Shown piece after piece: positions 32,160 through 48,969 of a stretch of 64,000 nt of DNA. The position numbers and the translations under genes are program-made. Positions within the stretch are counted from its first letter, which is position 1; each line of letters begins with the position of its first letter. A model generated the notes under the pieces. It had not been told where the DNA came from. It worked only from the letters and a program-made list of their open reading frames with translations, and searched no databases. The DNA comes from Bdellovibrionales bacterium RIFCSPHIGHO2_01_FULL_40_29 (lineage in GTDB: Bacteria; Bdellovibrionota; Bdellovibrionia; Bdellovibrionales; Bdellovibrionaceae), in NCBI GenBank assembly GCA_001771815.1, contig MEPU01000006.1:124001-188000 (forward strand), written 5' to 3'.

Positions 32160-33100
32160 AGGACTATGTTGGCCAATGGTTTGAAGCTTATCGCGAACTC
32201 GGCGAGCCTTATGATATTAATTTCTTAGTTGAGCAAAATGGATCCCAAAAACTGATTTCTGTTTCTCATGAAATTACTGATGGTGCTGGAGCACTTTTTC
32301 ACATTGCCACCGAAAATGGATTTACAGTCACTCCAAAAATTTCTAAAAGCAATCCTCCTAAAATGAATTTTGGAAAGTATTTTCTAAATATTGTTAAATT
32401 TCTCTACTGGTCACGATCCCGAGGAAATAATCTATGGAACTTCAAATTTCCTAAAGCCATGGAAAGTTCTATTCGTTATGCAACACTTTCGTTGTCAGCT
32501 TCTGAAACTCAGCAGTTGCATGAAAAAGCCCGCAGTAAAAATATCAGTTTGAATACTTTACTGTTATTTTGTCTGGACACGATAATTTCTAAAAAATTCG
32601 GAGTCCATCATAAAACTCGCTCTTGGTGGATCCCCGTCAGCATGAGACCTGATTTGGGAATTGCTCCCAACGACCCAACAGCAATTCGAAACTACGTCTC
32701 CAATTTTACACTGGATCTTAAAAACTCATTGAGTCCAGAACTCTTGCAAAAGAAAATCTCTGAAGCTCTCAAGCAACAACGACATTGGGGAACTTGGTGG
32801 TGGCAGCAACTGGGTCGCTATTTGCCCCACGCGGTCATTCGGTATATTGCATACAAAAAATTATTCAATAATCAGCATGTTGGAGCCTTCACCAATTTAG
32901 GTGAGTGGACGTCAACACCGCTCCCGATTCAAATGACTCCCATCGGAAATCCACTCTATTCGCACCCACTGTGTTGCAGTTGCATTCAGTTTAACAAAAG
33001 ATTAAATCTTGCAATTCGCGTCTATCCCACATTTCCATTGGACCAAAATACACTCAATATCATGATGCAGGACTGGAAACAGAATCTTTTTGATCTTTGA
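32156..33100 (+). CDS. Condensation/acyltransferase-like protein (HxxxDG motif)
   Basis: The 314-residue protein has SHEITDGAGAL, the HxxxDG active-site motif of CoA-dependent acyltransferases and condensation domains (WS/DGAT, PapA, alcohol acetyltransferase types), and a central region like the second half of that fold (NTLLLFCLDTIISKKF, IPVSMRPD, VSNFTLDL). The N-terminal half is shorter than in most relatives (usually 400-460 aa). It is coupled to rpoH by ATGA and is convergent with the hydroxylase gene, overlapping it by 41 bp. A lipid or alcohol acyl-transfer role is likely but its partner is unknown. Confidence 0.7.
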   Translation: MKDYVGQWFEAYRELGEPYDINFLVEQNGSQKLISVSHEITDGAGALFHIATENGFTVTPKISKSNPPKMNFGKYFLNIVKFLYWSRSRGNNLWNFKFPKAMESSIRYATLSLSASETQQLHEKARSKNISLNTLLLFCLDTIISKKFGVHHKTRSWWIPVSMRPDLGIAPNDPTAIRNYVSNFTLDLKNSLSPELLQKKISEALKQQRHWGTWWWQQLGRYLPHAVIRYIAYKKLFNNQHVGAFTNLGEWTSTPLPIQMTPIGNPLYSHPLCCSCIQFNKRLNLAIRVYPTFPLDQNTLNIMMQDWKQNLFDL

Positions 33101-33851
33101 TTCGATAAAACTCAGATTCTGTTTTTACATGCAACGTCTTGAAATACTTATCCCATCCCCGCCAGTAAAGTCCAAAATTTGATTTAGAAAATTGGTGATG
33201 CATATTATGATGGGTTGGCGTTGTTAACCACCCCCCTAGTTTTGAATGATATACTTTTCGAGGTAAAAATTCATAGCCCAAATGTCCAACCAAGTTTCCA
33301 ACATCTGTTAAAACCAGTAAAACAAAGAACATTTCGTAACTGATAGGCACAAAAAATACAAATGGCAGCATGTAAAAAATTGTAATCACTGTCTCAATCG
33401 GATGAAAGGAATACGATGCAAATGGCGTTGGATTCAATGATTGATGATGAATAATATGAATATTTTTATAGAACCACCCTTGATGCAAAAACCGATGCGA
33501 CCAATAAAAATAAGTGTCATACAATATAAAATAAGTAAAAAATCCAACGATTTCAGAGGCAACGCCTTGAGTGCCAAAACCTGGATACAACTTGAAATAG
33601 TTCAGTTGAGATCCCCAAACCAATGCTGTTAAAAATAAACTTTGTATGAACAAAGTTAAAATTGAATACCGAATTTCCATTGAAACACAAGGTTCGGTCC
33701 GTGGAATTTGTTGAATTTTTTGATTCCAAAAATACTTTGAAAACCATTTCCAGAATATAAAATATGGTAAACAAAGAATAATAATGAACTTCAAAATAGA
33801 AATTGAAAACACAACTATAAAAATTTGCTCAAAACTACTTTGACTCATCAT
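33060..33851 (-). CDS. Fatty acid hydroxylase/sterol desaturase-type membrane enzyme (1)
   Basis: Integral-membrane diiron enzyme. The 263-residue protein has the histidine boxes HRFLH, HIIHH and HNMHHQ in the canonical spacing, among four or five hydrophobic segments. ATG at 33851 (or 33848) is chosen because the upstream frame lies inside the previous gene's end; it overlaps that gene by 17 bp. It is the last gene of the four-gene set that starts with the ketosynthase fusion. Substrate (fatty acyl chain, alkylated ring or other lipid) cannot be told from sequence. Confidence 0.84.
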   Translation of the reverse strand: MMSQSSFEQIFIVVFSISILKFIIILCLPYFIFWKWFSKYFWNQKIQQIPRTEPCVSMEIRYSILTLFIQSLFLTALVWGSQLNYFKLYPGFGTQGVASEIVGFFTYFILYDTYFYWSHRFLHQGWFYKNIHIIHHQSLNPTPFASYSFHPIETVITIFYMLPFVFFVPISYEMFFVLLVLTDVGNLVGHLGYEFLPRKVYHSKLGGWLTTPTHHNMHHQFSKSNFGLYWRGWDKYFKTLHVKTESEFYRIKDQKDSVSSPAS

Positions 33852-34563
33852 CAGGCCCACTTGTTCTGAAAATAGCATCCAGATAAGGCAGAAAAAAACC
33901 AAAATTTGCATGCGGCACCTTGTGGTGCAATGAATGCCTCTTTGAAAAACTGAAAATACTATTCATTGAATACGCAGGAAAAAAATCAACATTCGAATGC
34001 CCCAAAACATTGAAACCAATACTCAGCAACGGCAGCAACATCAACGACGTGACCTGAAAATCATGGAAACACATAATTAAAGGCATCACTGCCCCTAGAA
34101 GTATTCCTTCAGACCAATGAAAACTATAGGCTGAAAATGGATTGGGTACATGCGAGTAATGATGATCTGCATGAAACTTGTAAAATGGTTTCAAGTGAAA
34201 AAATCGATGCACACTGTAGAAATGAACTTCATTCCAAATAAATAGAAGCAGCCCTTCGCCGAGCAAGACACTCCACGAAAATTCGAAATGTATCTTAAAA
34301 AAACCTGAATGCAATCCAAAGTATATCGGTACACTTAAAAAGCCAAACATCAAAATAGACACAAAGGATCGCTTGATCTCCGTTTTGATCTGTCCTGGTC
34401 GCAGAGCTTGTATTTGGTATTTTTTGAAATTGTCTCTCTTAAAAATAAAGTAAGAAATGGTTGTTATTGAAAAATACAACAAACTAAAACTGACAACTGT
34501 GATTATAAAAAAATCGAATACAGATAGATTCAACAAATCCGTTTCGGCAAAGTACTTATCCAT
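33835..34563 (-). CDS. Fatty acid hydroxylase/sterol desaturase-type membrane enzyme (2)
   Basis: A second, only distantly similar member next to the first. The 242-residue chain has HRFFH, HADHH and HSLHHK boxes and four or more membrane segments. The pair is not a recent duplication, as the sequences outside the His boxes differ. ATG 34563 overlaps the end of the previous gene by eight bp. Two tandem hydroxylases imply two oxidations on the same product or a heterodimer; both are inference. Confidence 0.84.
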   Translation of the reverse strand: MDKYFAETDLLNLSVFDFFIITVVSFSLLYFSITTISYFIFKRDNFKKYQIQALRPGQIKTEIKRSFVSILMFGFLSVPIYFGLHSGFFKIHFEFSWSVLLGEGLLLFIWNEVHFYSVHRFFHLKPFYKFHADHHYSHVPNPFSAYSFHWSEGILLGAVMPLIMCFHDFQVTSLMLLPLLSIGFNVLGHSNVDFFPAYSMNSIFSFSKRHSLHHKVPHANFGFFLPYLDAIFRTSGPDDESK

Positions 34564-35452
34564 GAGATTCTAATTGAGTCTGCTGTTCCAGTTTTTTCTG
34601 AACCAACAACCAATGCCCCATCTCACTTGAAAGTCCATGCAACACCAAACGAAAACTAGAATTCAAAGTGATCAACGAAACCAAAGGATGTTTGTTATTA
34701 ACAAGCACAAGATGCTGCTGGGAACTCAAGATTGTCGCCGCATAAATACCAATTGTTTCATCCAATTGAAGAGAATTTGTTGCGCGCCAAAAATCGTTAT
34801 CCGTTAAAAAAAACTGAAATATCGGAGTGTACAGGCTGATAGCCGTTTCCAGGTCGATAAAATTAAAAAAACCATTTTTTTGTGGTTCGATATCAAACTC
34901 GCCCGCAGTGATCATCGAAAAATCCGGATGAGCAACTGGCTTGATCTTGATATTTTTATTTCGAAGCTCTTTGTTCAAATTGATAACGAAATTATACAAA
35001 TTTAAATCATGAGTTAAAAAAAGATCGTTTTTCAAATCATCTAGATTCCTTGGGCGCAGTGGATTCATGGGTATCTTAACCCCAGGAACATTGTTTGCAA
35101 TAAATCCCAGAATCTCAGAGCCCACATGAAAATGTCGAAGTATCAATTCATTGGCATCTGCCCGAACAAAAGTTTTAAGACCCCAAACAATAAGACGATG
35201 TAATGTTTTTGAAGCCCGCCAATCAATCGGCGAAAGAACTTTTAAAATTTGTATGATGATAATGCATAATTTTGCAAAAGGCCGCGCAAATGGTAAAAGA
35301 TACTGACGAGAATGCGAACTGCAGTCTTTCAACCATTTCTCCTTTACAGATGGGCGGATGGGGGTGCTTTGATCCAAATAAAGTGCATACCAAGGATTTG
35401 GATCTGTCGGATCATGCTGAATAAATTCACTACCCTTATAATTATCACTCAT
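34556..35452 (-). CDS. Unrecognised protein in the ketosynthase-hydroxylase cluster
   Basis: No family recognised. The 298-residue product has a Pro/Asp-rich start, a hydrophobic helix near residues 55-75 (LCIIIIQILKVLSPI), an LILRHFHVGSEIL segment and a C-terminal helical part. No signal peptide is clear. ATG 35452 overlaps the previous stop as ATGA and has GGGAG eight bases upstream within that gene, so the two are translationally coupled. It is conserved by position in this set only as far as can be seen; a small-molecule-binding or accessory enzyme role is a guess. Confidence 0.72.
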   Translation of the reverse strand: MSDNYKGSEFIQHDPTDPNPWYALYLDQSTPIRPSVKEKWLKDCSSHSRQYLLPFARPFAKLCIIIIQILKVLSPIDWRASKTLHRLIVWGLKTFVRADANELILRHFHVGSEILGFIANNVPGVKIPMNPLRPRNLDDLKNDLFLTHDLNLYNFVINLNKELRNKNIKIKPVAHPDFSMITAGEFDIEPQKNGFFNFIDLETAISLYTPIFQFFLTDNDFWRATNSLQLDETIGIYAATILSSQQHLVLVNNKHPLVSLITLNSSFRLVLHGLSSEMGHWLLVQKKLEQQTQLESHG

Positions 35453-37269
35453 AGGACGAGCTCCCATTGCTTCTGATACAAAGAGGCTACTTGTTTAGCT
35501 GTTTCCAAAATGTCATCATAACACTTTGGTTCTAATATCAATGCCATTTCAACAGCTTGAGCCCATCGCTCTAAGTGCTTCACATCATTTTCGCCATGAT
35601 ACTCTAGAAATTTAAAGGCATTCATTTGCAAACCAAGATGCTTTTTCAAAAAAGGCAGCAAGGTGGGAATGATCTTTTGACCAGTACCCTCGATGATAAA
35701 AATCCCCCCTAACAGTCCCAGTGGATTTTCAGATTTTGCTTTCTCATACATATAAGCATTTAACTCCTCACCACCCGAATTGCGTTTTAAATCATCGATG
35801 AGTTTATTTCCACCAGCATTCTGATAATCAGCATATAGTATTTTAAAATCGAACTGTTCTTCGCCGGCATGGGTTTCTATGAGCTCCTGAATCCCTTCAA
35901 ACTTTATCGATAAGTTAGAAATGGCTGTTCGCATCCAAATACTGCCTTCACGAACCTGTGGAATCCAATTTTCCATCCAACGTTGATAGTCTTCAAGCTT
36001 AATAGTTCCATTAAAAATTCGATGAGCCAGTTCAGAACGAAAAACTGTCGATCTGTAGCTGTGCCATACTGATCCCAAATCCAATAGTAAATTCTCAACA
36101 GGCTTTCGAGGGAGTGGCGCGGGTTTTCTGGTTGTTTCTAACTTGCCATCTTTCATCACCTCAAACATTAAATAGGAAACTGTAAAACGGCCGGATTCAG
36201 GAACAAAACACAGAATTTTTTGTCCTGGTTTTAATTCCTTCGTTCTTAAAAACTCTTCCATCATAATAAAGATGGAAGCAGCACCAGTATTTCCACGAGT
36301 TTTTAAATTGCTGAACCATTTTTCTGCAGGAATCGTAAGACCCGCTTTATCAAGAAGTACTTTGATAACATCTGAAAATCTCTCAGATGAATAATGACAA
36401 AGAAAGTAGTCGACATCATCCACAATGATGTCTTTTTTTAATACCAAATCAATAAACTCGCTGATGCCCACATCAAATAAATTAGGCAACAACCGAATAT
36501 CTTGGCGTAGTAAAAATGATCCGCTCTTTTCAGCTTCTTCCAGTGATGAAAAATCCAAGTAACTTTTATTAGGCTGATTCCATGGCGAACCAATTTGCAT
36601 ACACGTTGGATAATCACCACTAAAAGATTTCAAATGAATCCAATCCAATTTCAGTGAAATTCCAGTCTCGTTAGGCTTGTTTTCAAACAGTGTAGCTCCT
36701 GATCCATCCGACAGCATCCACCGCAAGAAATGCGAATCAAAATCAATGTTTTCATCAATTTTTTGAAATCGTTGAACCTTAAACAACCGCGATGGAAACT
36801 CTGTGGCAACCGCCAAAGCTTTGCTAAATTCACCCAACTCAACAACTTGGGCTGCGGCCTTCATCGCAGCCACACCAGATGCACAGATGCCTTGAAACGA
36901 CATGGTTTGCATCGGCGCCGCCTTCAGTTGCCCCTGAATTAAATTTGCAAATCCCGGAGCCGCAAGATCACCACCCACCGTGGCTGAACTGAGAAACTGA
37001 ATATCATTTATTTTGGTTGAAGTATGACTGAGAGTTTTTTCAATGGCCTTGATCGCTAAATCTGCCGATGAAAAAACAGTTTTCCCATCTTTATCAATCG
37101 CATAATGACGATTTTGAATTCCATTCTCTGCCAAAATTCTACGCTTGATGCGAGAAGATTGGGGATTCACAGAACCGATATACGAATCCATTTCTTCATT
37201 ATTAATGCCAGGTCCTGGCAAAAAAGATCCCACAGAATTCAAGTAAACATTCTTAAAATAGGCCGGCAT
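35449..37269 (-). CDS. Ketosynthase III (FabH-like) fused to a heme-oxygenase-like putative diiron oxidase domain
   Basis: Residues 1-375 are a thiolase-fold ketosynthase III with the Cys-His-Asn triad: Cys129 in GICASG, His292 in FLCHYS, Asn327 in TRGNTGA. These make Claisen condensations using acyl-CoA or ACP substrates. Residues about 395-606 are all helical and resemble heme-oxygenase-like proteins; H558-x3-D562-x2-H565 (in EYHGENDVKHLERW) matches the third metal motif of heme-oxygenase-like diiron oxidases such as SznF, with Glu and His candidates near 413-416, 467-470 and 527. GGAG five bases before ATG 37269 fixes the start. It lies 24 bp after fliA. Long ketosynthases of the StlD/DarB type are an alternative to compare. 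The exact product is unknown. Confidence 0.86.
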   Translation of the reverse strand: MPAYFKNVYLNSVGSFLPGPGINNEEMDSYIGSVNPQSSRIKRRILAENGIQNRHYAIDKDGKTVFSSADLAIKAIEKTLSHTSTKINDIQFLSSATVGGDLAAPGFANLIQGQLKAAPMQTMSFQGICASGVAAMKAAAQVVELGEFSKALAVATEFPSRLFKVQRFQKIDENIDFDSHFLRWMLSDGSGATLFENKPNETGISLKLDWIHLKSFSGDYPTCMQIGSPWNQPNKSYLDFSSLEEAEKSGSFLLRQDIRLLPNLFDVGISEFIDLVLKKDIIVDDVDYFLCHYSSERFSDVIKVLLDKAGLTIPAEKWFSNLKTRGNTGAASIFIMMEEFLRTKELKPGQKILCFVPESGRFTVSYLMFEVMKDGKLETTRKPAPLPRKPVENLLLDLGSVWHSYRSTVFRSELAHRIFNGTIKLEDYQRWMENWIPQVREGSIWMRTAISNLSIKFEGIQELIETHAGEEQFDFKILYADYQNAGGNKLIDDLKRNSGGEELNAYMYEKAKSENPLGLLGGIFIIEGTGQKIIPTLLPFLKKHLGLQMNAFKFLEYHGENDVKHLERWAQAVEMALILEPKCYDDILETAKQVASLYQKQWELVL

Positions 37270-37293: not shown

Positions 37294-38079
37294 CTAGATG
37301 GCTTCTAGTTCGCCCGCATTCAGCATCACTGCCAACTTCGCCCGTAAGCGAGTCACAGCCTGCGCATGCAATTGTGAAACACGGGACTCTGTTACCCGTA
37401 GGACTTGTCCGATTTCCTTTAAGTTAAGGTCTTCGAAATAATACAACGACAGCACCAAACGTTGACGCTCAGGTAATTCTTCGATGGCTTTTGCCACCAC
37501 ATCTTTGATGACCTTAACATTGAGTTGGTTGAATGGATTTCCAGATTTTGAACCCTCAAGTAAGTTTGAAATTGATTTTTTATCCGAATCGCTGAATGTT
37601 GGTTGATCGTCAATTGACAACAAACTCACAGGACGAACTTGATTCACCAAGCCATGAAACTCTTCAATAGGCATATTTAATTTTGCAGAAATTTCTTCGT
37701 CCGTAGGAGCTCGGCCCAAATCTAATTCCAACTGAGCAACGCAACGATCTAAGGCTTTTGATTTATCACGAACCGAACGGGGAACCCAATCTTGTGATCG
37801 CAACTCATCTAAAATGGAACCTCGAATTCGAAACTCCGCATAAGTTTTGAATTTATTATCACGGGATGGATCCCATTTATCAATAGCATCCATCAATCCT
37901 ATGGAGCCTGCTGAAATAAGATCATCCAATTCAATATTTGGAGGCAATCGAATCGCAATTTTTTGCGCAACGAACTTAATCAATGGGGAATACTCTCGTA
38001 TAAGCTCTTCCTTTTGACCACGCTTGATATTCTTTTTGGGTTCGTCTTTATACTTTTTTAGAAGACTAGCTTTCTTCAT
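37294..38079 (-). CDS. fliA: Flagellar sigma factor FliA (sigma-28)
   Basis: Turns on late flagellar genes. The 261-residue protein has regions 2-4 of the FliA type: EYSPLIKFVAQKIAIRLPPN, DLISAGSIGLMDAIDKWDPS, FKTYAEFRIRGSILDELR, DWVPRSVR (the family signature), and region 4 LPERQRLVLSLYYFEDLNLKEIG with RVTESRVSQLHAQA. ATG 38079 is chosen; a longer upstream frame lacks the family start. It is the distal flagellar gene, 65 bp after flhG, and the ketosynthase gene follows 24 bp later without an evident terminator. Confidence 0.95.
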   Translation of the reverse strand: MKKASLLKKYKDEPKKNIKRGQKEELIREYSPLIKFVAQKIAIRLPPNIELDDLISAGSIGLMDAIDKWDPSRDNKFKTYAEFRIRGSILDELRSQDWVPRSVRDKSKALDRCVAQLELDLGRAPTDEEISAKLNMPIEEFHGLVNQVRPVSLLSIDDQPTFSDSDKKSISNLLEGSKSGNPFNQLNVKVIKDVVAKAIEELPERQRLVLSLYYFEDLNLKEIGQVLRVTESRVSQLHAQAVTRLRAKLAVMLNAGELEAI

Positions 38080-38144
38080 TTCAATGTACCCCTCAACATA
38101 ATAAATTCTACATGATACCGAACAGAACACATAATCAATAGTGT

Positions 38145-38951
38145 TTAAGCATGACCAGAGGCTGGTCTAAACAGCATGTCTAGACCTTTGACGTTGCCTG
38201 TTGCCCTGTCGATAGTTTTGTTTTGAGACTCGATTTCAGAACAAATCACGCGTAAGGCCTGAGCTGAAATAGACTTTGGATCTTGCCTTATTATGAGACG
38301 CTGATGCTGATTCGAAATTTTTAAATTCACATCATAAGGAATACTTCCCTTATACTGAATCCGAACTGTCAGAAATTGTTGAACCACCTCTGCAAATCGC
38401 AAAAAGAGCTGTGCTCCCTGTTGTTCATCTTTAACTTGATTACAAATTATAGAAAATTTCTGAGACTTATACTTCTGCTGAAGTACTTTTATTAGCGCGT
38501 AAGAATCCGCTAAACTTGATGGGTCCGGAGTCAATATCACATAGCATTCATCAGCAATCGAATTCAGGTGCAAAACATGATCATGCAATCCAGGAGAGGT
38601 ATCGATAATTAAGTAATCATACTGATAGTTCACGGACTCTAGCCCCGCAATAATTTCACGACGCTGAAATGAGTTTAAATGACTAAGCTCATAAATCCCA
38701 TTCCCACCCGCTAACAAATCCACATGGTGCGCAACAGGGGTTAAGCAACTTTTCAAAGATTCACCAGCCAGCAAATCATTGATCGTTTTTTTAGGATGAA
38801 CTCCAAAAAAAATATCCACATTAGCCATTCCAAGATCACCATCAAGAACCAGAACTTTTTTACCCAGTTGTGACAAACCAAGAGCGACATTGCTGGTAAT
38901 AGAAGTCTTACCCACGCCGCCTTTTCCTGAAGAAAAACTAATAATTTTCAT
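38145..38951 (-). CDS. flhG: FlhG (YlxH/FleN) MinD-type ATPase, polar flagellar number control
   Basis: MinD/ParA-like ATPase that limits flagellar number, partner of FlhF. The 268-residue chain has the deviant Walker A SSGKGGVGKTS, VLDGDLGMANVD, the ADP-coordinating LLAGGNGIYEL and YLIIDTSPG. It begins at the P-loop strand; the N-terminal DQAxxLR helix that activates FlhF in B. subtilis and Vibrio is absent, and only nine bases separate it from flhF, so no room is left upstream. This is a real difference from the well-studied partners. Confidence 0.93.
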   Translation of the reverse strand: MKIISFSSGKGGVGKTSITSNVALGLSQLGKKVLVLDGDLGMANVDIFFGVHPKKTINDLLAGESLKSCLTPVAHHVDLLAGGNGIYELSHLNSFQRREIIAGLESVNYQYDYLIIDTSPGLHDHVLHLNSIADECYVILTPDPSSLADSYALIKVLQQKYKSQKFSIICNQVKDEQQGAQLFLRFAEVVQQFLTVRIQYKGSIPYDVNLKISNQHQRLIIRQDPKSISAQALRVICSEIESQNKTIDRATGNVKGLDMLFRPASGHA

Positions 38952-38960
38952 TTTAATATC

Positions 38961-40367
38961 CTAAATGTATGAGTTTGTTGTCGTTTCTCTTCCAGAATTT
39001 TTCGAAATTTCTAAAATAAGATCAACGACTCGCTCTGGAGTTGCTCTTTCGAAATCTTCTGGAACCTGTGGACCAATTCCAAATGCAAAAAGTTTAGTAT
39101 TTACCTTTCGAACAAAATTATAAATATTTCCATGTATCGCAGACTTATCCAGATCATTAAAAATCACATCATCAAATCCAAATTTTTCAAAACGCTGAGC
39201 CATATCGAACAGATCACCGTCTTTTGTTAAACATGACATCACCAAATGTGTGCGCAATGAATTATAAACAGGCGGCGACATTCGTTTTAAATAATTAAAT
39301 TCTTCTTGTGTGCGCATATTCAAACCAGAAAAATCCACTAAAATATGATCAATCTGATCTAAATGCGGAATGATATGGGACCAATCTTGCTGAGATCGTA
39401 AAAGCAGAAAAGGAACATTTAATATTTGACAAAAAATCTTCATTTGCTCTGAAGCGCCAACTTTTAAATTATCCGCTGAAATAATGGCAACACGTTTTCG
39501 TTGATTCAATATTAAATCGCTAGCCAGCTTTATCAAAGAGCTGGTTTTACCTGTACCTGAGGCTCCAATAAACAGATGAAACTGCTCTGTTGAATTGGTT
39601 ACAACTGGAGTGGTATCCAAAATGTACTTTCCAATCCAATTTTCGATTAAATTTTTATTTTCAATATGCTTTAGATCAATTTGCTTTTGTGCTTGCGTGA
39701 CAATATCAGCAGCAATTTCTGGCAAAAGACCCCGTTGAACTAGTTTTTTATAGTAATTCGTATACTCGTAATGAACTCCAGCCTCGGCACCTGGATGACT
39801 GTGCACAAAATTCTGTGGAACCGGTTTAAACTGCTGAACCAAAGACTTCAAACCTTCGATCTCAGATTTCAGTTGATTGACTTCCATATCATTCCACTTT
39901 TTTTGCGCATACTGTGTGACCGGAGTTGTTGCATTCAACTGCACCTGCGTCGTCGAATAATTCGTTGCCTGGTTATCATTATCGATATCAATATACCGTT
40001 TTTCAGTGCGCTGATAATTAACTTTTGAAGCTTCAGGTTGAAGTTTCTTGGCCCGCAATCCAACTTGCTGATTCATGCGCGCCACATGATTTTCAATCAT
40101 TTTTTGTGTGATTTCTTTTTGACTTTTAGCGCTGGATTTTAAAAATTTTTCACGCGTGGCATCTGGCATTTTAGATTCTGCAAATTTTTTCTTTTGCACA
40201 TTTGCATCGGAGTATGCCGCCGTGATCTCGATGCTTTTTTCTCCACCCAAGCCGAAACCTTTGGTGATTTCCTTTGCAGAAAGAATAATTGCATCTGGCC
40301 CCAACTGGGTTTTGACCATGTCCAAGGCTTCTTTCATTGTTCGAGCTTCAAACTTCTTTACTTGCAT
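38961..40367 (-). CDS. flhF: FlhF SRP-type GTPase, polar flagellum placement
   Basis: SRP-family GTPase that sets where the flagellum is built. The 468-residue chain has the FlhF-type start MQVKKFEARTMKEALDMVK, a long variable B region (residues about 60-240) and a C-terminal NG domain with the P-loop GASGTGKTSSLIKLASDL, VAIISADNLKVGASEQ, and DFSGLN where most FlhF have DTAG; the DxxG pattern is kept. It is followed by flhG after nine bases. Confidence 0.93.
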   Translation of the reverse strand: MQVKKFEARTMKEALDMVKTQLGPDAIILSAKEITKGFGLGGEKSIEITAAYSDANVQKKKFAESKMPDATREKFLKSSAKSQKEITQKMIENHVARMNQQVGLRAKKLQPEASKVNYQRTEKRYIDIDNDNQATNYSTTQVQLNATTPVTQYAQKKWNDMEVNQLKSEIEGLKSLVQQFKPVPQNFVHSHPGAEAGVHYEYTNYYKKLVQRGLLPEIAADIVTQAQKQIDLKHIENKNLIENWIGKYILDTTPVVTNSTEQFHLFIGASGTGKTSSLIKLASDLILNQRKRVAIISADNLKVGASEQMKIFCQILNVPFLLLRSQQDWSHIIPHLDQIDHILVDFSGLNMRTQEEFNYLKRMSPPVYNSLRTHLVMSCLTKDGDLFDMAQRFEKFGFDDVIFNDLDKSAIHGNIYNFVRKVNTKLFAFGIGPQVPEDFERATPERVVDLILEISKNSGRETTTNSYI

Positions 40368-40380
40368 ATATCCTTACCCC

Positions 40381-42471
40381 TTACCCGGCCAAACCAACTG
40401 TAGCCACAGACTGAACTCGGGCATCTGCCGTGATTTCATTATGTGACAAGACAATAAGCTGCGGGATGAAACGTGAAACCAATTTAAATATATGACGACG
40501 TACAGTTGGACTGGTCAGCAGAATGGGCTGTCCGGCAATTTCGGGATGACTCTCGATACGATTTGCAATATTTGAAATCATTTTTGAAGCCGATTGTGGA
40601 TCCATAACCAATTGCACACCTTGCTCTGTTTGCAAAAGTGAATTCGAAACCAACTCTTCCATTTTTGAATCAAAAGTCATAACACTCACTGAGCCATCCT
40701 CAGAAACATACTTAGCTGTAATGGACCGAGACAAATGTTTACGAACTGCCTCTGTTAGTAAATCCAAATCCTTTGTTCGTGATGCTTCGTCAGCTAATGT
40801 TTCAAAAATGGTCAACAAATCACGAATTGAAATTTGTTCTTTAAGCAAGTTTTGCAATACTCGAACGACGCCACCCAATGACAACGCATCGGGAATAAGG
40901 TCTTCGATAACTTTGGGATGAGTTTTCTTTAGATTTTCGATCAACTGTGAAACCTCTTGGCGACCCAATAGCTCATGAGCATGAGTGCGAACCATTTCCG
41001 TGATATGAGTGGCCATGACTGTTGGCAAATCCACAACCGTGTATCCCGCAATTTCAGCTTCTTCACGTTTTGAGGGATGAATCCAAACAGCATCCAAACC
41101 AAAAGCAGGTTCTTTCGTTGGAACTCCTTCGATTTTCTTTCGCACATCTCCTGGATCCATAGCCATTAAGCTATCGGGTTTCAAAATTCCACCACCAATA
41201 CGACTGCCCTTCATCATAAAGCGGTATTCACCGGGTGCTAATGTGAGATTGTCCCGAATATGGACGCTGGGTACAACAATACCCAAATCCAATGCAAATT
41301 GTTTTCGAAGACTGGCTATACGCTCTAACAAATCGCCGGACTTACTAGAATCAACAACATTAATAAGTCCGTATCCCACCTCAAGCTCAACCATATCCAA
41401 TGGCAGCATGCTTTCGACATTTTCTTTTTTAGGTGCAGCTAATTCGGCATCTACTTTTCGTTTCGCCTCAACAACAGCTTCCTGTCGATACTGAGTTATC
41501 GTCCAAGCAATTCCCGCCATCACAATAGCCATAACGATAAATGGAGTTCCTGGTAACCCCGGAACCATACCCAATGCCGTTAGGACAGCAGCGCAAATAT
41601 AAATAGCCTTGGGATTCAGTAATAATTGACTTGTCAACTCTGTTCCCATGCTCTCGTCAGTACTGCTTCGAGTGACAATCATACCTGCTGCTGTTGAAAT
41701 AATAAGGGCCGGAATCTGTGCTAATAGTCCATCACCAATCGATAGCATCGTATAGAATTTTGCAGCTGATCCAACATCCAGTCCCTTTTGCATCACACCA
41801 ATTAAAAGACCACCTAAAATATTCACAACGGTGATAATGATACCTGCTATGGCATCACCACGAACAAACTTGCTGGCACCATCCATGGCTCCATAAAAAT
41901 CAGCCTCTTGTTCAATTTCTTTTCGACGACGCTTGGCTTCTTGTTCATTAATAATTCCGGCATTTAATTCCGCATCGATTGACATTTGTTTTCCAGGCAT
42001 GGCATCCAAAGTGAACCGTGCTGCAACTTCGGCAACTCGACCAGAACCTTTTGTAATAACAATAAAATTGATCACAACCAGAATAATAAAAACAATCAAA
42101 CCAATAACATAGTTATCGCCAACAACAAAGTTACCAAATGACTTAATAACTCCACCGGCCGCCTGAGTACCTTCATGACCATGTGTCAAAATCAAGCGCG
42201 TTGTCGCAACGTTCAAAGCCAATCGAAACAAAGTTGTCAAAAGTAATAAAGATGGAAAAGATGAAAAATCTAAAGTTCTTTTAATATATATAGCTGTTAA
42301 TAAAATCAATAAGCTCAATGCCAAAGAAAATGTCAGCGCAATATCCAGCATGAATGCCGGCAGTGGAATAATCATCACACTGATAATTCCCAACAAACCG
42401 AAGGCTATAAAAAGATCGGTATTCTTAGTTAATTTTTCAAATCGTTTCATAAACTGAAATATTTGTTCCAC
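40381..42471 (-). CDS. flhA: FlhA flagellar export gate protein
   Basis: Large inner-membrane subunit of the flagellar type III export gate. The 696-residue chain has seven or eight N-terminal helices, the FHIPEP-type region (GSGRVAEVAARFTLDAMPGKQMSIDAELNAG, then RRKEIEQEADFYGAMDGASKFVRGDAIAG) and the cytoplasmic C-domain (ALSLGGVVRVLQNLLKEQI ... PVLLTSPTVRRHIF-like PILLTSPTVRRH). GTG at 42471, one base inside the flhB stop, has AGG six bases upstream; ATG at 42450 would lose it. Confidence 0.97.
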   Translation of the reverse strand: MEQIFQFMKRFEKLTKNTDLFIAFGLLGIISVMIIPLPAFMLDIALTFSLALSLLILLTAIYIKRTLDFSSFPSLLLLTTLFRLALNVATTRLILTHGHEGTQAAGGVIKSFGNFVVGDNYVIGLIVFIILVVINFIVITKGSGRVAEVAARFTLDAMPGKQMSIDAELNAGIINEQEAKRRRKEIEQEADFYGAMDGASKFVRGDAIAGIIITVVNILGGLLIGVMQKGLDVGSAAKFYTMLSIGDGLLAQIPALIISTAAGMIVTRSSTDESMGTELTSQLLLNPKAIYICAAVLTALGMVPGLPGTPFIVMAIVMAGIAWTITQYRQEAVVEAKRKVDAELAAPKKENVESMLPLDMVELEVGYGLINVVDSSKSGDLLERIASLRKQFALDLGIVVPSVHIRDNLTLAPGEYRFMMKGSRIGGGILKPDSLMAMDPGDVRKKIEGVPTKEPAFGLDAVWIHPSKREEAEIAGYTVVDLPTVMATHITEMVRTHAHELLGRQEVSQLIENLKKTHPKVIEDLIPDALSLGGVVRVLQNLLKEQISIRDLLTIFETLADEASRTKDLDLLTEAVRKHLSRSITAKYVSEDGSVSVMTFDSKMEELVSNSLLQTEQGVQLVMDPQSASKMISNIANRIESHPEIAGQPILLTSPTVRRHIFKLVSRFIPQLIVLSHNEITADARVQSVATVGLAG

Positions 42472-43553
42472 TATAAACCTCGCTCGGCTGGTCTACGCTT
42501 TTTTCGGCGCAGACGGAAAACGTACGACAACACTTCGGCAACGGCCACGAACAACTCTCGGGGAATGACCTGTCCAATTTTCATTGTTTTAAATATAGTT
42601 CGAGCCAATGGCTTATTCTCGATAACTGGTATGTTATTATCACGCGCTATCTGTTTAATTTTTTCCGCCATATGATCCATACCCTTGGCAATAAGTTGTG
42701 GAGCCGGCAATTTATCTGAATATTTCAATACCACAGCAATATGAGTTGGATTTGTTATAACAACATCTCCCTTAGGAATTTCACTCATCATCTTTCGAGT
42801 GGCCATTTCACGCTGAACTTTTCGAATTCGCGCCTTAACCATGGGATCACCATCTCGAGATTTCAACTCTTGTTTTACTTCTTCCTTAGTCATCATCATT
42901 TCTTTTTCAAGCTGCCATCTTTGGAAAAAGTAATCAGCTAAGGCCAACACCAGCATGAAAAAACCAGTTCCCATTAAAAGCTTAAAAAGAATTTCTCCCA
43001 TATACGTCATCAACTGAGAAATCGAGTATCCCGCCAAGTATGGAATTTGATGCAGTTCAGATTTCAAGAGCAGGTACATGACCGTAGCGACTGCTGTCAT
43101 TTTAAGAATTGATTTAAATAGTTCGGCAACTCCACGCATTGAAAAAATACGACCCAAACCATTCAATGGATTGATCTTGTTAAAATTAGGACTCAACGCA
43201 TCTTCGATTTGAAGCAATCCTGTTTGAGCGATATGCGAACCGACCCCAATGACCAATGCAATAACAAAGACTGGTCCTGTAAGAATGACCAACTTTAAAC
43301 CAACAAATGAAAAGACATCATTGAGCTTGCCTTCACGGAAAAGCTGAATCAAATCGCCGCCCATTGTGCGATTAAAGATTTCAAATATATTCTGCAAGAA
43401 AAAACGTCCCGAAATGTAAATCAATCCAGCAGCCACCAAAAAGAAAACCGCTGAACCCAGTTCACGAGTCATTGCCACTTGTCCGCGCTTACGAAATTCT
43501 TCGCGGCGCTGGTCCGTGGCCTGTTCGGTTTTATCGCCCTGGTCTTCTGACAC
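42471..43553 (-). CDS. flhB: FlhB flagellar export substrate-switch protein
   Basis: Inner-membrane export protein that self-cleaves to switch export from hook to filament subunits. The 360-residue chain has the family's start KTEQATDQRREEFRKRGQV, four membrane segments and the autocleavage motif NPTH (about residue 270, in DVVITNPTHIAVVLKY), then a basic tail ending RLRRKKRRPAERGL. GTG at 43553 has AAGGA about seven bases before it. A 57-bp gap separates it from fliR. Confidence 0.97.
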   Translation of the reverse strand: MSEDQGDKTEQATDQRREEFRKRGQVAMTRELGSAVFFLVAAGLIYISGRFFLQNIFEIFNRTMGGDLIQLFREGKLNDVFSFVGLKLVILTGPVFVIALVIGVGSHIAQTGLLQIEDALSPNFNKINPLNGLGRIFSMRGVAELFKSILKMTAVATVMYLLLKSELHQIPYLAGYSISQLMTYMGEILFKLLMGTGFFMLVLALADYFFQRWQLEKEMMMTKEEVKQELKSRDGDPMVKARIRKVQREMATRKMMSEIPKGDVVITNPTHIAVVLKYSDKLPAPQLIAKGMDHMAEKIKQIARDNNIPVIENKPLARTIFKTMKIGQVIPRELFVAVAEVLSYVFRLRRKKRRPAERGL

Positions 43554-43610
43554 TATCGTTCCTTCCTAGAACGTGACTCTGTCGCTGTCCATCATGGACA
43601 GCTGGTCGGT

Positions 43611-44396
43611 TTATAACGTTTTCATAAACTTAAAAAATTCAACTGCTGTCAAATCCAATAGACCCGACATCTCCATCACCAATAATGGTAAACTTATAAA
43701 AATAATTCCAAAACCCAGTAACGTTGCTATAGATACGGATGTGACCAAAACATTAATTTGTGGAACAGCTCGACTGAGTAATGCAATTCCAACTTGAACA
43801 ATAATCATTGAAATCAATATAGGAGCTGAAATTTTAATTCCCAGGATAAAGAATTCTTGAGTTCGCATAACCACTTCGGCAAATGATTGAATATTAAACT
43901 GTGCCATAGCCAATTCTGAGGTCGTAAAACTTTGCACCAATCCTTGAATCATCATGTGATGACCATTCAGTGCAAAAAACAACAGCGTCCCAACCGTCAC
44001 ATAGAACTGTTCCATAGCATTTCCCATGGAACCTAACATTGGGTTGAACAACTGTGCCTGACCCAATCCTGTTGAGACAGAAACAATTTCACCCGCCATC
44101 GATAAAGCAAAAAAGAATATTCTGGTGAAAAATCCCAACACCAATCCAATTAAAAGTTCTGTTCCCGCCATCAAAATCAATTGGCTTTCGTTTTCACTGA
44201 GTCGCGCGATAACCATATTTGTTGCTACGGGTTTAAAAACCAAAATCGTCAATACCACAGAGAATAAAACTTTGACCGCAACTGAAATCGTCGGCGAACT
44301 AAATATCGCGGAAGACATTACAAATGCAGTCATTCTTAAAAGAATAAGTCCAAATGCAAGAACTTGAATTTCATTCAGTTGAGAAATATTGATCAT
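43611..44396 (-). CDS. fliR: FliR flagellar export gate protein
   Basis: Export-gate core subunit. The 261-residue protein is nearly all hydrophobic with five or six helices and the FliR-like SAIFSSPTISVAVKVLFS, GQAQLFNPMLGS and PLLVMEMSGLL segments. Its ATG follows the fliQ stop with no gap (TAGATG), showing coupling. With FliP and FliQ it forms the helical export pore. Confidence 0.94.
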   Translation of the reverse strand: MINISQLNEIQVLAFGLILLRMTAFVMSSAIFSSPTISVAVKVLFSVVLTILVFKPVATNMVIARLSENESQLILMAGTELLIGLVLGFFTRIFFFALSMAGEIVSVSTGLGQAQLFNPMLGSMGNAMEQFYVTVGTLLFFALNGHHMMIQGLVQSFTTSELAMAQFNIQSFAEVVMRTQEFFILGIKISAPILISMIIVQVGIALLSRAVPQINVLVTSVSIATLLGFGIIFISLPLLVMEMSGLLDLTAVEFFKFMKTL

Positions 44397-44672
44397 CTAG
44401 GGCCCTCTTACAACAGTCGAAATATTATCAAAAAGGCTCACAGTATATGTGCTTAAAGTATCCAGCATCCACGGTCCCGCCAAAATCAAGACTATAGCTA
44501 TGACAACCATCTTCGGAACAAAGGTCAGTGTGTTTTCATTTATTTGAGTCAAAGCTTGAAAAATACTGATGATCAAACCAATGATCAATGTACTCAAAAG
44601 CATTGGCGCTGCCACCATTGCCAAAGTTTTCAAAGCATCTTGCCCGAGTTGTATTACGATATCTTCGTTCAC
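44397..44672 (-). CDS. fliQ: FliQ flagellar export gate protein
   Basis: The 91-residue, two-helix protein has the FliQ pattern PMLLSTLIIGLIISIFQALTQ then NENTLTFVPKMV. GTG start with GAGG six or seven bases upstream. It sits between fliP and fliR as in most flagellar operons. Confidence 0.95.
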   Translation of the reverse strand: MNEDIVIQLGQDALKTLAMVAAPMLLSTLIIGLIISIFQALTQINENTLTFVPKMVVIAIVLILAGPWMLDTLSTYTVSLFDNISTVVRGP

Positions 44673-44681
44673 GCGCCACCT

Positions 44682-45425
44682 CTATCCGAAACTTTTGACC
44701 ATGGAACCAATAAGCAAACTCCAACCATCGACTAAAACAAAAAGCATAATCTTAAATGGCAAAGCAATAACAGTTGGCGGAACCATCATCATACCCATAG
44801 CCATCAAAACGCTGGCAGCCAGGATGTCGATAATAAGAAAAGGCAAAAATATAATAAAACCTATCATGAATGCGGTCTTCAGTTCAGATACAATAAAGGC
44901 AGGAACTAGAACCAATGTCGGGACATCTGCACGAGTTTTCGGTTTTTCAACTTGGGCCAATTTTATAAAAAGAGCCAAATCTTGATCGCGCGTTTGATTG
45001 AACATAAACTTTCTTAACGGAACCAATGCATTTTCAATGGCAATATCTTGGTTCATTGTTCCGTTCATATACGGTTGAAGCGAGTTCTGATTGATGTCTT
45101 TAAAAGCCGGCCCCATTACAAAGAACGTTAAAAATAAAGATAATCCCACCAACAACTGATTGGGTGGCATCTGCTGAACACCTAAGGCTTGTCGCAGAAA
45201 GGAAAGCACAATTAAAATGCGTGTAAATCCTGTCATCATGATGAGAATCGCCGGCGCTAAAGTCAAAACAGTCATGATCAAGACTAGCTTGATCGCACTG
45301 ACCACTTCCGTTGGATTCTGCGTGGTTTTAAAACCCAAATTCAATGTGGGCAGAGTCACCTGAGCCATGGCCCAAGAGCCTAAAAGAAAAATCGACAATG
45401 GCGCAAACCATCTCAAAAATCTCAC
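44682..45425 (-). CDS. fliP: FliP flagellar export gate protein
   Basis: The 247-residue protein has a cleavable signal (WFAPLSIFLLGSWAMAQ), as FliP usually does, then ILIMMTGFTRILIVLSFLRQALG, TPPNQ-type MPPNQLLVGLSLFLT, FIVSELKTAFMIGFIIFLPFLIIDI and MGMMMVPP, all family marks. GTG at 45425 overlaps the fliO stop (GTGA) and has GAGGAG six bases upstream. Confidence 0.97.
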   Translation of the reverse strand: MRFLRWFAPLSIFLLGSWAMAQVTLPTLNLGFKTTQNPTEVVSAIKLVLIMTVLTLAPAILIMMTGFTRILIVLSFLRQALGVQQMPPNQLLVGLSLFLTFFVMGPAFKDINQNSLQPYMNGTMNQDIAIENALVPLRKFMFNQTRDQDLALFIKLAQVEKPKTRADVPTLVLVPAFIVSELKTAFMIGFIIFLPFLIIDILAASVLMAMGMMMVPPTVIALPFKIMLFVLVDGWSLLIGSMVKSFG

Positions 45426-46048
45426 GAAATGCTCCTCATTGATTTGATTTTTTTCGAAACAGTATCTTTAAGTCCGGCAAAGGAAAATTCTTCTTCAAGG
45501 TCATTAGCATCAGCACCCATCGCTACTGAAGTTGCTCCGGCACCCATTTGACCTGTTGATGCATTTAATGCTTCATTAAAATTTTTAGGTAAATTTTGTT
45601 GTGGCACTTCGTCATCTAATAGAGCAAGTGATTTAATCATGGAAATATTTGAATCCGTAACTCCAATAAGAATAGATTCCCCAGCAACATGCACAATAGC
45701 TAAACTTTTTTTCGGCCCAAGATAGTGTTGTGATAACACCTTAATTTGCATATTAGATTTATTGATTGTATTCGAAGTTTTATACTTACGCACAAAATAG
45801 TAGGCCGCACCAAGCATGGACGATATGATCACACCCGTCAGTAAGATACGAGTCGATGCTGGGGGAGCATCTGCCGATTTTTTAATCGTATCAATATTCA
45901 AAGGAATTTTTTCTTCCGGAGAAATCGTTGCTGCTTGCTCAGTTTCAATAGCAGCAGTTGGCTTTTCAACATTTACCATTTCTTCAGCAGTAAAGCCAAA
46001 GCTTGATAACAAAATGGAAACTGTAAAAATTAAAAAGCTTTTCATCAT
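45422..46048 (-). CDS. fliO: FliO-like flagellar assembly protein
   Basis: The 208-residue protein has a signal peptide, a Thr/Glu-rich periplasmic part, one membrane helix ([19 protein letters not shown]) and the FliO cytoplasmic core ([37 protein letters not shown]). FliO helps FliP assemble. ATG 46048 overlaps the fliN stop as ATGA. FliO is the most variable flagellar gene; order supports the call. Confidence 0.9.
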
Positions 46049-46401
46049 TTTAATTGCTCGATTCTTTCTGAAGGCGAAATAATATCTGTTAGACGCACAC
46101 CAAATTTTTCATTGACGACAACGGCCTCACCGCGAGCAATCAATTTTCCGTTAACCAATACTTCCATTGGTTCACCGGCAAGCTTGGAAAGCTCTAGCAC
46201 TGAACCTTGCGTCAAGTTCAAGAGTTCACTGACGGCCATTTTTGTTCGACCAAGTTCAACAGTCACCTTAAGAGGAATATCTAAAATAAGGTTCAAGTTT
46301 TTATCTTTAGCCGGGCTTAATTTATGTTCGCCCGTTGTCACGGCTTCTTTAAGCTCGTCCAATTGACCTGCAATATTGTCCAATGGATCATTATTTCCCA
46401 T
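46045..46401 (-). CDS. fliN: FliN flagellar switch protein
   Basis: The 118-residue protein is a SpoA-type switch subunit: [67 protein letters not shown]. It joins FliM in the C-ring, where CheY control is read. It lies 11 bases after fliM and is coupled to fliO. Confidence 0.96.
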
Positions 46402-46412
46402 ACTTCCCCCTG

Positions 46413-47402
46413 TTATTTCTCGATAGACCGTGTAATTTGCATCGCCACAGTTCCATGATGTATTCCATAGTAACCTTTAAACTTTTTAACGTCTTCAACC
46501 TGGATATCCAGTTCGCCAGAAGAATCTTGCGTTAAAGGAATGATATCCCCTACTTTTAGACCCATTAGGTCCTTCAATTTAATTTCTGTTTCACCCAAGT
46601 TCACATTGATATCGACTTCTGTTTCAAGAAGCTGCTCTTTGATAATGGACGTCCAAAGTTTTTTATCTGTTTGATCTGATTCAACCTGAAATCCTGTCGA
46701 TAATTTTTGCTTAATGGGTTCGATCGTCGAATACGGAATAACAATTGAAATTGTTCCCGATGCGGCCTCGAGCTCTACATCAAATGTTGTTGCAATAACC
46801 ACATCTGTCGGAGGCACAATCCCCACGAACTGAGGATTGATTTCGGTCCGTTGAAATGAACAACCAATTTTTTCAATCGTTGACCAGGATTGCTCAAGAT
46901 CATTAATTGCTAACTCGACAACTTTTTTAACAATCTGCAATTCAATAGGCGTAAATTCTTTTCCATCAAGTTTTGCATAGGGGCGATCAGCACCACCAAA
47001 AAAAGAATCCACAAGGGCATAGGCCAATTTAGCTTCGATGACAAACAGGGCGGAACCCCGAAGATTATTGAAACGCAATACCGACATGCATGTTGGTATT
47101 GGCAATGTATTGATAAACTCACCAAATTTTAAGAACTCAGTCGATGTTAACGTGATAGAAGCAATCTTACGCAAAGAGGATGAAAGGGATACACGAAATG
47201 AACGCATGAATTTTTCGTAGATAACTTCCAATTGCGGAAGACGGCCACGAATAATCCTATCCTGACTGGTTAAATCATAATTGATAATGTTTTTGCCATC
47301 ATCTCTGATCTTCTTAACGTTCGAATCTGCCGTTGGGACATCGCCGTCAGTGACGGCTGCCAAAAGGGCATCAACTTCGCTCTGCGATAAAATTTGGTTC
47401 AT
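46413..47402 (-). CDS. fliM: FliM flagellar switch protein
   Basis: The 329-residue switch subunit opens with [13 protein letters not shown], the short N-terminal peptide that binds phospho-CheY, then a CheC-like middle domain ([31 protein letters not shown]) and a C-terminal SpoA domain ([29 protein letters not shown]). Length and order are typical. It is 12 bases after fliL. Confidence 0.96.
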
Positions 47403-47414
47403 GCAAACCTCTTT

Positions 47415-47948
47415 TTAATTGTAAATCAACTCTGTGAAGTAAACGTTCATAATTTTTCCTTTACTTAAAAAGGAATTAACCTGATCTTTGATTTCGTTGC
47501 GAAGAAAGTCTTTGCCTTCTTTGGTAGAAACTTCGTCATAGGTCTTGCTTGATAGAATAATAATAATGAAATCACGTATCTGAGCTTTGCGATTATCGAT
47601 CTCTTGAATAATATCCTGACCTTTAACTTCCAGCTCCATATTCACTTTAAGAACTTTACGGCCCTTAGATCCGGCTAAGTTCACAATAAATGTTTCCAGC
47701 GGAATAACTTTACCGACTTCTTCAAGAACGAGCTGTTCAGTTTTGTCGTCTTTTTCAACGCCTTCGACCACTTGTTCAATTGTTGTTGTGGGTTTTTGAG
47801 AATTTTTATAGAGCATAAATCCCACGCCCAAAACGACAACCATATTCACAACCACAAGAGCGATCAGTAAATACGACTTTGATCCAGTAGATGGTACTGA
47901 AACTTCCGGTGCTGCTGCTGCTTCTTTTGGTGCTTTTTCTTCAGCCAC
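47415..47948 (-). CDS. fliL: FliL flagellar stator-associated protein
   Basis: The 177-residue protein has a single N-terminal membrane helix (YLLIALVVVNMVVVLGVGFML) and the periplasmic FliL domain (PLETFIVNLAG ... NRKAQIRDFIIIILSSKTYDEVSTKEGKDFLRNEIKD). GTG at 47948 has GGAGG seven bases before it. It heads the flagellar operon; a sigma-54 promoter lies about 80 bp upstream. Confidence 0.94.
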   Translation of the reverse strand: MAEEKAPKEAAAAPEVSVPSTGSKSYLLIALVVVNMVVVLGVGFMLYKNSQKPTTTIEQVVEGVEKDDKTEQLVLEEVGKVIPLETFIVNLAGSKGRKVLKVNMELEVKGQDIIQEIDNRKAQIRDFIIIILSSKTYDEVSTKEGKDFLRNEIKDQVNSFLSKGKIMNVYFTELIYN

Positions 47949-48024
47949 TTTTCATCCTCCGTGATGAGGGGAAGCCAAAAACCTATCTTCAAAACAGAAG
48001 ATACAACTCCCCACAAAAAGAACG

Positions 48025-48041
48025 AGCAACACAAGTGCCAA
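48025..48041 (-). promoter_or_regulatory. Sigma-54 (RpoN) promoter of the flagellar operon
   Basis: On the minus strand TTGGCAC-TTGTG-TTGCT matches the -24/-12 consensus TGGCAC-N5-TTGC at every defined base, with GG at -24 and GC at -12 in correct spacing. It lies about 78 bases before the fliL GTG and points into the operon. Many polar-flagellate bacteria use sigma-54 for this class of operon. Confidence 0.85.
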
Positions 48042-48097
48042 CTGGACTTTGATCAAGTGATTTATTTTTTATCGCGTAGAAGTCAAAAAAATGAACT

Positions 48098-48124
48098 TAG
48101 ACTGAAAGACAAAAGTCTGGTCTA
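48098..48124 (-). promoter_or_regulatory. Nested inverted repeat upstream of the sigma-54 promoter
   Basis: TAGAC (48098-48102) pairs with GTCTA (48120-48124), and inside them AGAC-AAAA-GTCT (48107-48118) forms a second dyad. The centre is about 97 bases upstream of the predicted transcription start, the usual place for an enhancer-binding activator (FlrC/FleQ/NtrC type). The binding protein is not known. Confidence 0.5.
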
Positions 48125-48168
48125 GGAAAAAAGATGCCTATCCTATGACTGGTCCTGTTGGAATTTTG

Positions 48169-48969
48169 TCATTGCCCCGACTGGTCTAAAATCTGGAGAA
48201 ACTTATTTACCAAAACAGGATTTCCAGCAACTAAGGTTTTTTCGAAGGGTGTGTAGTTTTGATTTTGATAGGTTCTAAGAATTCCACCGGCTTCTTCAAT
48301 CAAAATTTTTCCTGCAGCTGTATCCCAAGGCTTCAAATTTTTTTCCCAAAACAAATCAAAAACCCCGCTGCTGACCAAAGCCAAATCATAGGCCGCCGCG
48401 CCCGGACGCCGAATACCTCGTGCCAGCCTGACAAATTTTGAAAAAATACGAATCTGCTCTTCGAGATACTCAGGCTCTTCAGCAAAAAAACCAGTCGCTA
48501 GGAGCGCATCAGAAAACTCGGCCGTTTTTGAAACAGACATTTTTTCACCATTACAAAAAGCTCCGCCGCCTCGAATGGCTGTCCAGGTTTGATTCAGCAT
48601 CGGAACGTCTATAATTCCCAACTCAATTTCGCCCTGAACCTCAAGAGCTAACGAGATACAAAAGATAGGAAACTGATGAACAAAATTAGTCGTCCCATCT
48701 AATGGATCCAAGATCCAGCGCGCTTTATGCGACGGTTTAAACTCGGTTTGATTTTCATTAAAACTGGTTTCTTCACCCAAAAAATCGACGTCAGGACATA
48801 ACCGAGCAAGCTCTTTTTTCATTAAATCTTCGCAGGTCCGATCGGCTTCACTGACTAGACCAGCCTTTTCCTTGGATTCGATGTGGCTAATTTTTCCAAA
48901 ATATCCCAATAAACAGGCGCGACCAATATCTACAGCGCTTTTAGCAGCTTCAAACCTAGACTTTATCAT
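48169..48969 (-). CDS. Inositol monophosphatase family protein
   Basis: Magnesium-dependent, lithium-sensitive type sugar phosphatase. The 266-residue chain has LGEET, ILDPLDGTTNFVHQFP (metal-binding Asp residues), GAFCNGEKMSVS, and KPWDTAAGKILIEEAGG near the C-terminus. Substrates in this family include inositol phosphate, fructose bisphosphate and NAD-related phosphates; which applies is unclear. GGGTGA lies six or seven bases before ATG. It diverges from the SPOR gene. Confidence 0.9.
   Translation of the reverse strand: MIKSRFEAAKSAVDIGRACLLGYFGKISHIESKEKAGLVSEADRTCEDLMKKELARLCPDVDFLGEETSFNENQTEFKPSHKARWILDPLDGTTNFVHQFPIFCISLALEVQGEIELGIIDVPMLNQTWTAIRGGGAFCNGEKMSVSKTAEFSDALLATGFFAEEPEYLEEQIRIFSKFVRLARGIRRPGAAAYDLALVSSGVFDLFWEKNLKPWDTAAGKILIEEAGGILRTYQNQNYTPFEKTLVAGNPVLVNKFLQILDQSGQ

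Follow-up and report, generated by a model that had tools for sequence, protein, structure and literature searches.

The region upstream of fliL in Bdellovibrionales bacterium RIFCSPHIGHO2_01_FULL_40_29 raises the question of how a flagellar operon that carries a sigma factor gene at its far end is switched on. In the FlrA–FlrC and FleQ–FleR systems, flagellar genes are arranged in a four-tier hierarchy in which sigma-54 genes come early and sigma-28 genes later. For Bdellovibrio bacteriovorus, passages of one study propose FliA as a global regulator of the attack phase and call the mechanisms of the attack-phase switch largely unknown (PMC3627812). Strain HD100 possesses an RpoN-like gene, bd0843, and FliA, bd3318 (passages of PMC3464611); one fliL resides inside a large class II operon, and the stand-alone fliL gene bd1076 is preceded by a FliA promoter (passages of PMC11323537). 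As far as these passages go, HD100 resembles the present genome in its rpoN-like gene, its FliA, and a fliL within a large operon, whereas the stand-alone bd1076 differs in being preceded by a FliA promoter rather than by a sigma-54 promoter. Titles, abstract openings, and passages of the literature contained no description of sigma-54 control of the Bdellovibrio fliL–fliA operon.

The operon occupies the minus strand of the window, i.e., the whole stretch of 64,000 nucleotides that was analysed. The gene fliL (47415–47948; PF03748) is followed by fliM (46413–47402; PF02154) and by head-to-tail open reading frames for fliN, fliO, fliP, fliQ, fliR, flhB, flhA, flhF, and flhG (38145–46401). Assignments of fliN, fliO, flhF (SRP54 GTPase), and flhG (MinD/ParA-type ATPase) are supported by Pfam; fliP, fliQ, fliR, flhB, and flhA were named from their sequence and order. 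The last flagellar gene of the run, fliA (37294–38130), encodes sigma-28 with sigma-70 regions 2, 3, and 4, and its orthologs follow flhG in five of five relatives read. An earlier interpretation of this DNA, the sequence-only reading, had claimed that the operon begins under sigma-54 and ends with fliA. The head-to-tail order from fliL to fliA fits this claim, and a hierarchy with a sigma-54 start and fliA in last place would hold by gene order.

The -24/-12 site TGGCACTTGTGTTGCT (48025–48040, minus strand; TTGGCAC when the preceding base is included) is real. It lies 76 bases upstream of the GTG start codon of fliL at 47948, is oriented toward fliL, and constitutes the sole match to TGGCACN5TTGCT without mismatches in the window. 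When two mismatches are allowed, the window harbors 22 matches against 18.9 expected, i.e., no excess, so that only the perfect site is distinctive. Throughout the genome, TGGCACN5TTGC is matched nine times, compared with once for a reversed-pattern control, and TGGCAT-N5-TTGC five times, barely above the three matches of its control. Judging from the usual -24/-12 spacing, with the start placed 12 bases past the -12 C, transcription of fliL would begin at 48014. RpoN, whose absence would have refuted the sequence-only reading by its own terms, is encoded at G000:C6:44925. Sites for sigma-28 (TTAAG-N16-CCGATA, two mismatches) number 13 in the window against 14.1 expected, and none of them lies ahead of fliL or the ketosynthase gene discussed below.

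FliM matches were obtained in 95 of 99 genomes, the genome under study included. DNA upstream of fliL was read in 70 of these 95 (the best 30 and 40 chosen from the rest), the other 25 being left out of the promoter counts; one locus, L041, came without upstream DNA, leaving 69 loci. By a rule in which GG and GC are fixed and at least eight of ten bases agree, a sigma-54 site is found ahead of fliL in 69/69 relatives with readable upstream DNA, belonging to 29 genera. Every one of these loci has TGGCA and TTGCT unchanged, down to the final T, on which the search rule made no demand, and the sixth base of TGGCAY is C in 29 loci and T in 40. By this profile, the promoter appears nearly unchanged across the whole bacterial order, and the claim of a full-match site facing the operon stands. 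A site of the same form precedes flgF in all 30 flgF loci read, these being the best 30 from 96 genomes with a flgF match; here T, G, G, C, and A are present in 26, 30, 30, 29, and 27 of the 30 loci, respectively. Several flgF promoters of the genus (L161–L168) contain TATCGG, the reverse of CCGATA (a sigma-28 -10 box), on the divergent gene's strand. A further sigma-54 site was noticed past the fliD–fliS region (L004:1501–1640), ahead of a gene without a name, and a perfect inverted repeat, GGCCAGTCA-N6-TGACTGGCC, is located near it.

The sequence-only reading had also described an enhancer-type dyad upstream of the promoter. Such a dyad, AGAC-N4-GTCT (AGAC-AAAA-GTCT; 48107–48118, no strand assigned), is present with outer arms at 48096–48102 and 48120–48126, and its centre lies about 98 bp upstream of the predicted start, as had been stated. 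As a symmetric structure, however, it is weak and no better than chance: the region's most symmetric point lies elsewhere, at 48078.5, with a score reached by 797 of 1000 shuffles, and the longest perfect arm in the region, seven bases, is equalled in 46 of 300 shuffles. Its position is not kept in the other 11 congeners aligned. The shuffles and the lack of a fixed position in the genus rule the dyad out as a conserved enhancer. CCAGAC-N4-GTCT occurs at exactly five places in the genome, two of which are the fliL and flgF promoters, a count that is not an unbiased test since the pattern was chosen after the flgF copy was already known. None of the other three exact places is beside a good sigma-54 site. 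The proposed search for the same dyad at other flagellar genes recovered the core at flgF but no enrichment once one mismatch was allowed (59 + 46 compared with 78 + 59 in the control). The flgF copy, CCAGACTTGTGTCTGG, shares the GAC-N4-GTC form with the fliL dyad. Given that the upstream dyad also shares this form with a dyad proximal to the promoter, it is best seen, by sequence, as a movable extra copy of the GAC-N4-GTC class rather than as a conserved enhancer. Other upstream blocks are conserved in an alignment of 12 fliL promoters of the genus, namely TTTTTNCC(T/G)AGAC (48120–48132, minus strand) and GACAAA...ACAGGAC. The element GTCCTGTTGGAATTTTGTC (48152–48170, no strand assigned) is common to the fliL and flgF promoters; an exact search of the genome with its core, GTCCTGTNNGAANTTTGTC, hits these two promoters and nothing else, the pattern having been derived from these very copies.

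A phased box resembling that of FleQ and the promoter-proximal dyad are the more interesting content of the region, compared with the upstream dyad or the claim on the ketosynthase genes. The box, GTCATTGCCCCGAC (48168–48181, no strand assigned), has the form GTC-N8-GAC and overlaps the upstream gene's stop codon. Passages of the literature give the FleQ consensus as GTCaNTAAAtTGAC / GTCAaAAAAtTGAC and describe a 14-bp box with GTCAAT/ATTGAC arms (PMC6120874, PMC10723142), a consensus that was found unreliable in Pseudomonas (PMC6120874). The length, the ends, and the AT-rich centre of GTC-N8-GAC agree with the FleQ box. GTC-N8-GAC is present in 38/69 fliL loci, compared with 1.8 expected from shuffles, and the strict form GTCA-N6-TGAC in 27/69, where about 0.2 would be expected; the counts peak sharply at this spacing. 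Within the genus itself, GTC-N8-GAC occurs in 10 of 12 loci and the strict form in 0/12. Chance alone readily yields single copies (11 in the window against 6.4 expected), so that the support comes from positional conservation: 36/69 loci, from 20 of the 29 genera, contain the box between -90 and -150, and, measured from the T of TGGCA, it tends to lie near -110, -120, -131, or -141. Among nine periods tried, the Rayleigh R is highest at 10.5 bp, reaching 0.71 for 43 boxes in 38 loci and 0.63 once each position is counted a single time per genus, which leaves 33 (nominal p values of 4e-10 and 2e-6, respectively, in which kinship is ignored). At flgF the box is not enriched (3/30 loci); at fliL, within the range from -90 to -150, genus g6 has it in 1/19 loci and genus g5 in 0/5. 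Its conserved position suggests that GTC-N8-GAC is probably an activator site. Most fliL promoters of genus g6 (L044–L058, L101–L105) contain, in place of GTC-N8-GAC, a conserved TTTGACTNCTGTCA, a GAC-N4-GTC at about -107, with further conserved blocks alongside.

The promoter-proximal dyad GATCAAAGTC (48045–48054, minus strand) matches five of the six bases of the order consensus, GAC-N4-GTC, which, counted from the T of TGGCA, spans -14 to -5 and abuts the -24 element. With GAC at -14 and GTC at -7, at least five of six bases are present in 52/69 loci and all six in 20/69, whereas the next best offset reaches at least five bases in 12 loci. GAC-N4-GTC as such is enriched both at fliL (28/69 loci, 2.3 expected) and at flgF (16/30, 1.2 expected). 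We regard the proximal dyad as a likely regulator site. Its fixed placement relative to the -24 element could also indicate an extended sigma-54 promoter element of the order, a reading that is unlikely, since among 14 sigma-54-like sites of the own genome only those of fliL and flgF have GTC at -7, and the inverted symmetry together with the further upstream copies suggests a dimeric protein. The sole argument for taking the -24/-12 site itself as a chance match, with the operon starting elsewhere, is that the start position is a predicted one; given a site kept by every relative counted, this explanation is extremely improbable, and the fliL operon promoter is almost certainly sigma-54-dependent.

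Which protein would act from these sites is less certain. A search for sigma-54 activator domains returned 20 hits in the genome, 12 full-length and 8 weak. Among the 12, the helix-turn-helix (HTH) of the protein at G000:C6:243427 is nearest to that of FleQ (score 94, the next being 79) and both share the recognition helix RTTLVEKM; RTTLVEK is found in 31/31 orthologs among those listed. This protein comprises a receiver (PF00072 Response_reg, 90.2 bits), an AAA+ domain, and a Fis-type HTH, and a HisKA protein is encoded directly upstream. FleQ has an N-terminal domain of its own type that is not an ordinary phospho-receiver, and the FleQ N-terminal family is absent from the Pfam hits of C6:243427. 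With its receiver and the adjacent HisKA protein, C6:243427 is thus not FleQ itself. The suggested search for an FlrC/FleQ-type activator gene has accordingly yielded 12 activator domains, one with the FleQ helix, but in a protein lacking the FleQ N-terminal domain. The NCBIfam hits listed for five activator proteins were all below their curated cut-offs and added no names. We infer with even confidence that C6:243427 is the activator of the fliL promoter. Counting against this role, two genomes without FliM and FlgF hits (G063 and G088) retain its ortholog, genomes of g6 (G018) and g5 (G017) keep the RTTLVEK helix although their genera contain few or no GTC-N8-GAC boxes, and the protein has Asn-Arg where FleQ has two arginines. 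It is conceivable, if doubtful, that the activator is instead another regulator acting via the GAC-N4-GTC dyads, the upstream one included, with GTC-N8-GAC being otherwise used. The best such candidate is the receiver-AAA-HTH protein at G000:C6:191523, which has its own kinase and would play an FlrC/FleR-like part. Its reciprocal best hits occur in the flagellated G084 and G090 (62 and 61 percent) and in neither of the flagella-less G063 and G088, but the latter sample consists of two genomes only and C4:55837 and C4:404274 display the same presence pattern at lower identity. In many genera, related hits, as judged by frame length and identity, share a contig with FliM at a distance of 20–51 kb. 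The enrichment of GAC-N4-GTC at both fliL and flgF would likewise fit this candidate, yet no tie connects its HTH to GAC-N4-GTC, and at the proximal dyad, about -40 to -31, a bound protein could equally block polymerase. The kinase-regulator pair at C6:191523 (L015) is located 3.5 kb past the end of the window.

Overall, the region likely governs transcription of a flagellar operon of class II type in a relative of Bdellovibrio. The sequences show the elements, how these are conserved, spaced, and phased, and that rpoN and activators are present; the start site, the pairing of proteins with elements, the signal, and a single transcript extending to fliA are our inferences. In the proposed mechanism, RpoN-RNA polymerase would bind the -24/-12 site and then wait. 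An NtrC-family activator, most likely C6:243427, would occupy GTC-N8-GAC at a constant face of the helix, roughly 125–170 bp ahead of the start, and open the promoter with ATP, phosphorylation replacing FleQ's own mode of control. The transcript would comprise fliL-M-N-O-P-Q-R-flhB-flhA-flhF-flhG-fliA, and the sigma-54 step would in this way lead to sigma-28 and to the late genes. A second regulator probably reads GAC-N4-GTC where it abuts the -24 element, and also the additional copies of this dyad, including the upstream one.

This arrangement shares several features with FleQ/sigma-54 promoters of Pseudomonas, as far as passages of the literature describe them: flagellar genes preceded by a sigma-54 promoter (PMC6120874, PMC10723142, PMC6424431), a 14-bp box with GTC...GAC ends and an activator with the RTTLVEKM helix, and a single run of genes in which flhA and flhF are joined by fliA and the gene for an FlhG/FleN-type ATPase. 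In P. fluorescens, a FleQ motif is reported at fliL, fliE, and flhA (among PMC6120874, PMC10723142, PMC6424431). In contrast to Pseudomonas, the run starts with fliL, the proximal GAC-N4-GTC dyad is added, and the candidate activator carries a Response_reg domain next to a kinase and has no hit to the FleQ N-terminal family. With the FlrA–FlrC and FleQ–FleR hierarchies the operon would have in common that sigma-54 precedes sigma-28, here as seen from gene order, and it differs from them in having two candidate activators. Tentatively, and at somewhat less than even confidence, we propose that one sigma-54 promoter might, throughout the order, be where the building of a flagellum is decided and, by way of fliA, the attack phase of the predatory members as well. 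It would be read by a phosphorylated response regulator with a FleQ helix, acting at a helically phased FleQ-type box, and by a second regulator at the dyad touching the -24 element. If true, a two-component signal would be the attack-phase switch. A sigma-54 promoter with defined boxes ahead of the fliA-carrying operon would offer a precise place, and candidate proteins, for the switching-on of this programme, and suggests a FleQ-type DNA code beyond Pseudomonas and its kin, employed by a protein whose receiver domain is of the ordinary kind.

Whether the promoter also serves the genes beyond fliA, as had been claimed for the ketosynthase genes, is doubtful. Between fliA and a sigma-70-family gene on the plus strand (31149–32159) lies a patchy cassette of a ketosynthase, a DUF6999 gene, and two hydroxylase-like genes (33060–37269, minus strand). 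The ketosynthase starts 24 bp past fliA, and a terminator scan listed no site in this gap, so that read-through from fliA is possible. However, close ketosynthase homologs (78–79 percent) exist in only 2/98 relatives, and following fliA the gene is absent in four of five relatives read and present in G008 after a gap of 353 bp. Evidence for co-transcription with the flagellar operon is thus weak, and the cassette looks like a later insertion. A convergent sigma-factor-like gene (named from sequence) is found past fliA in three of these relatives, directly adjacent in G002 and separated by at least one small gene in G003 and G018; in G010, a LysR-like gene, likewise named from sequence, faces fliA.
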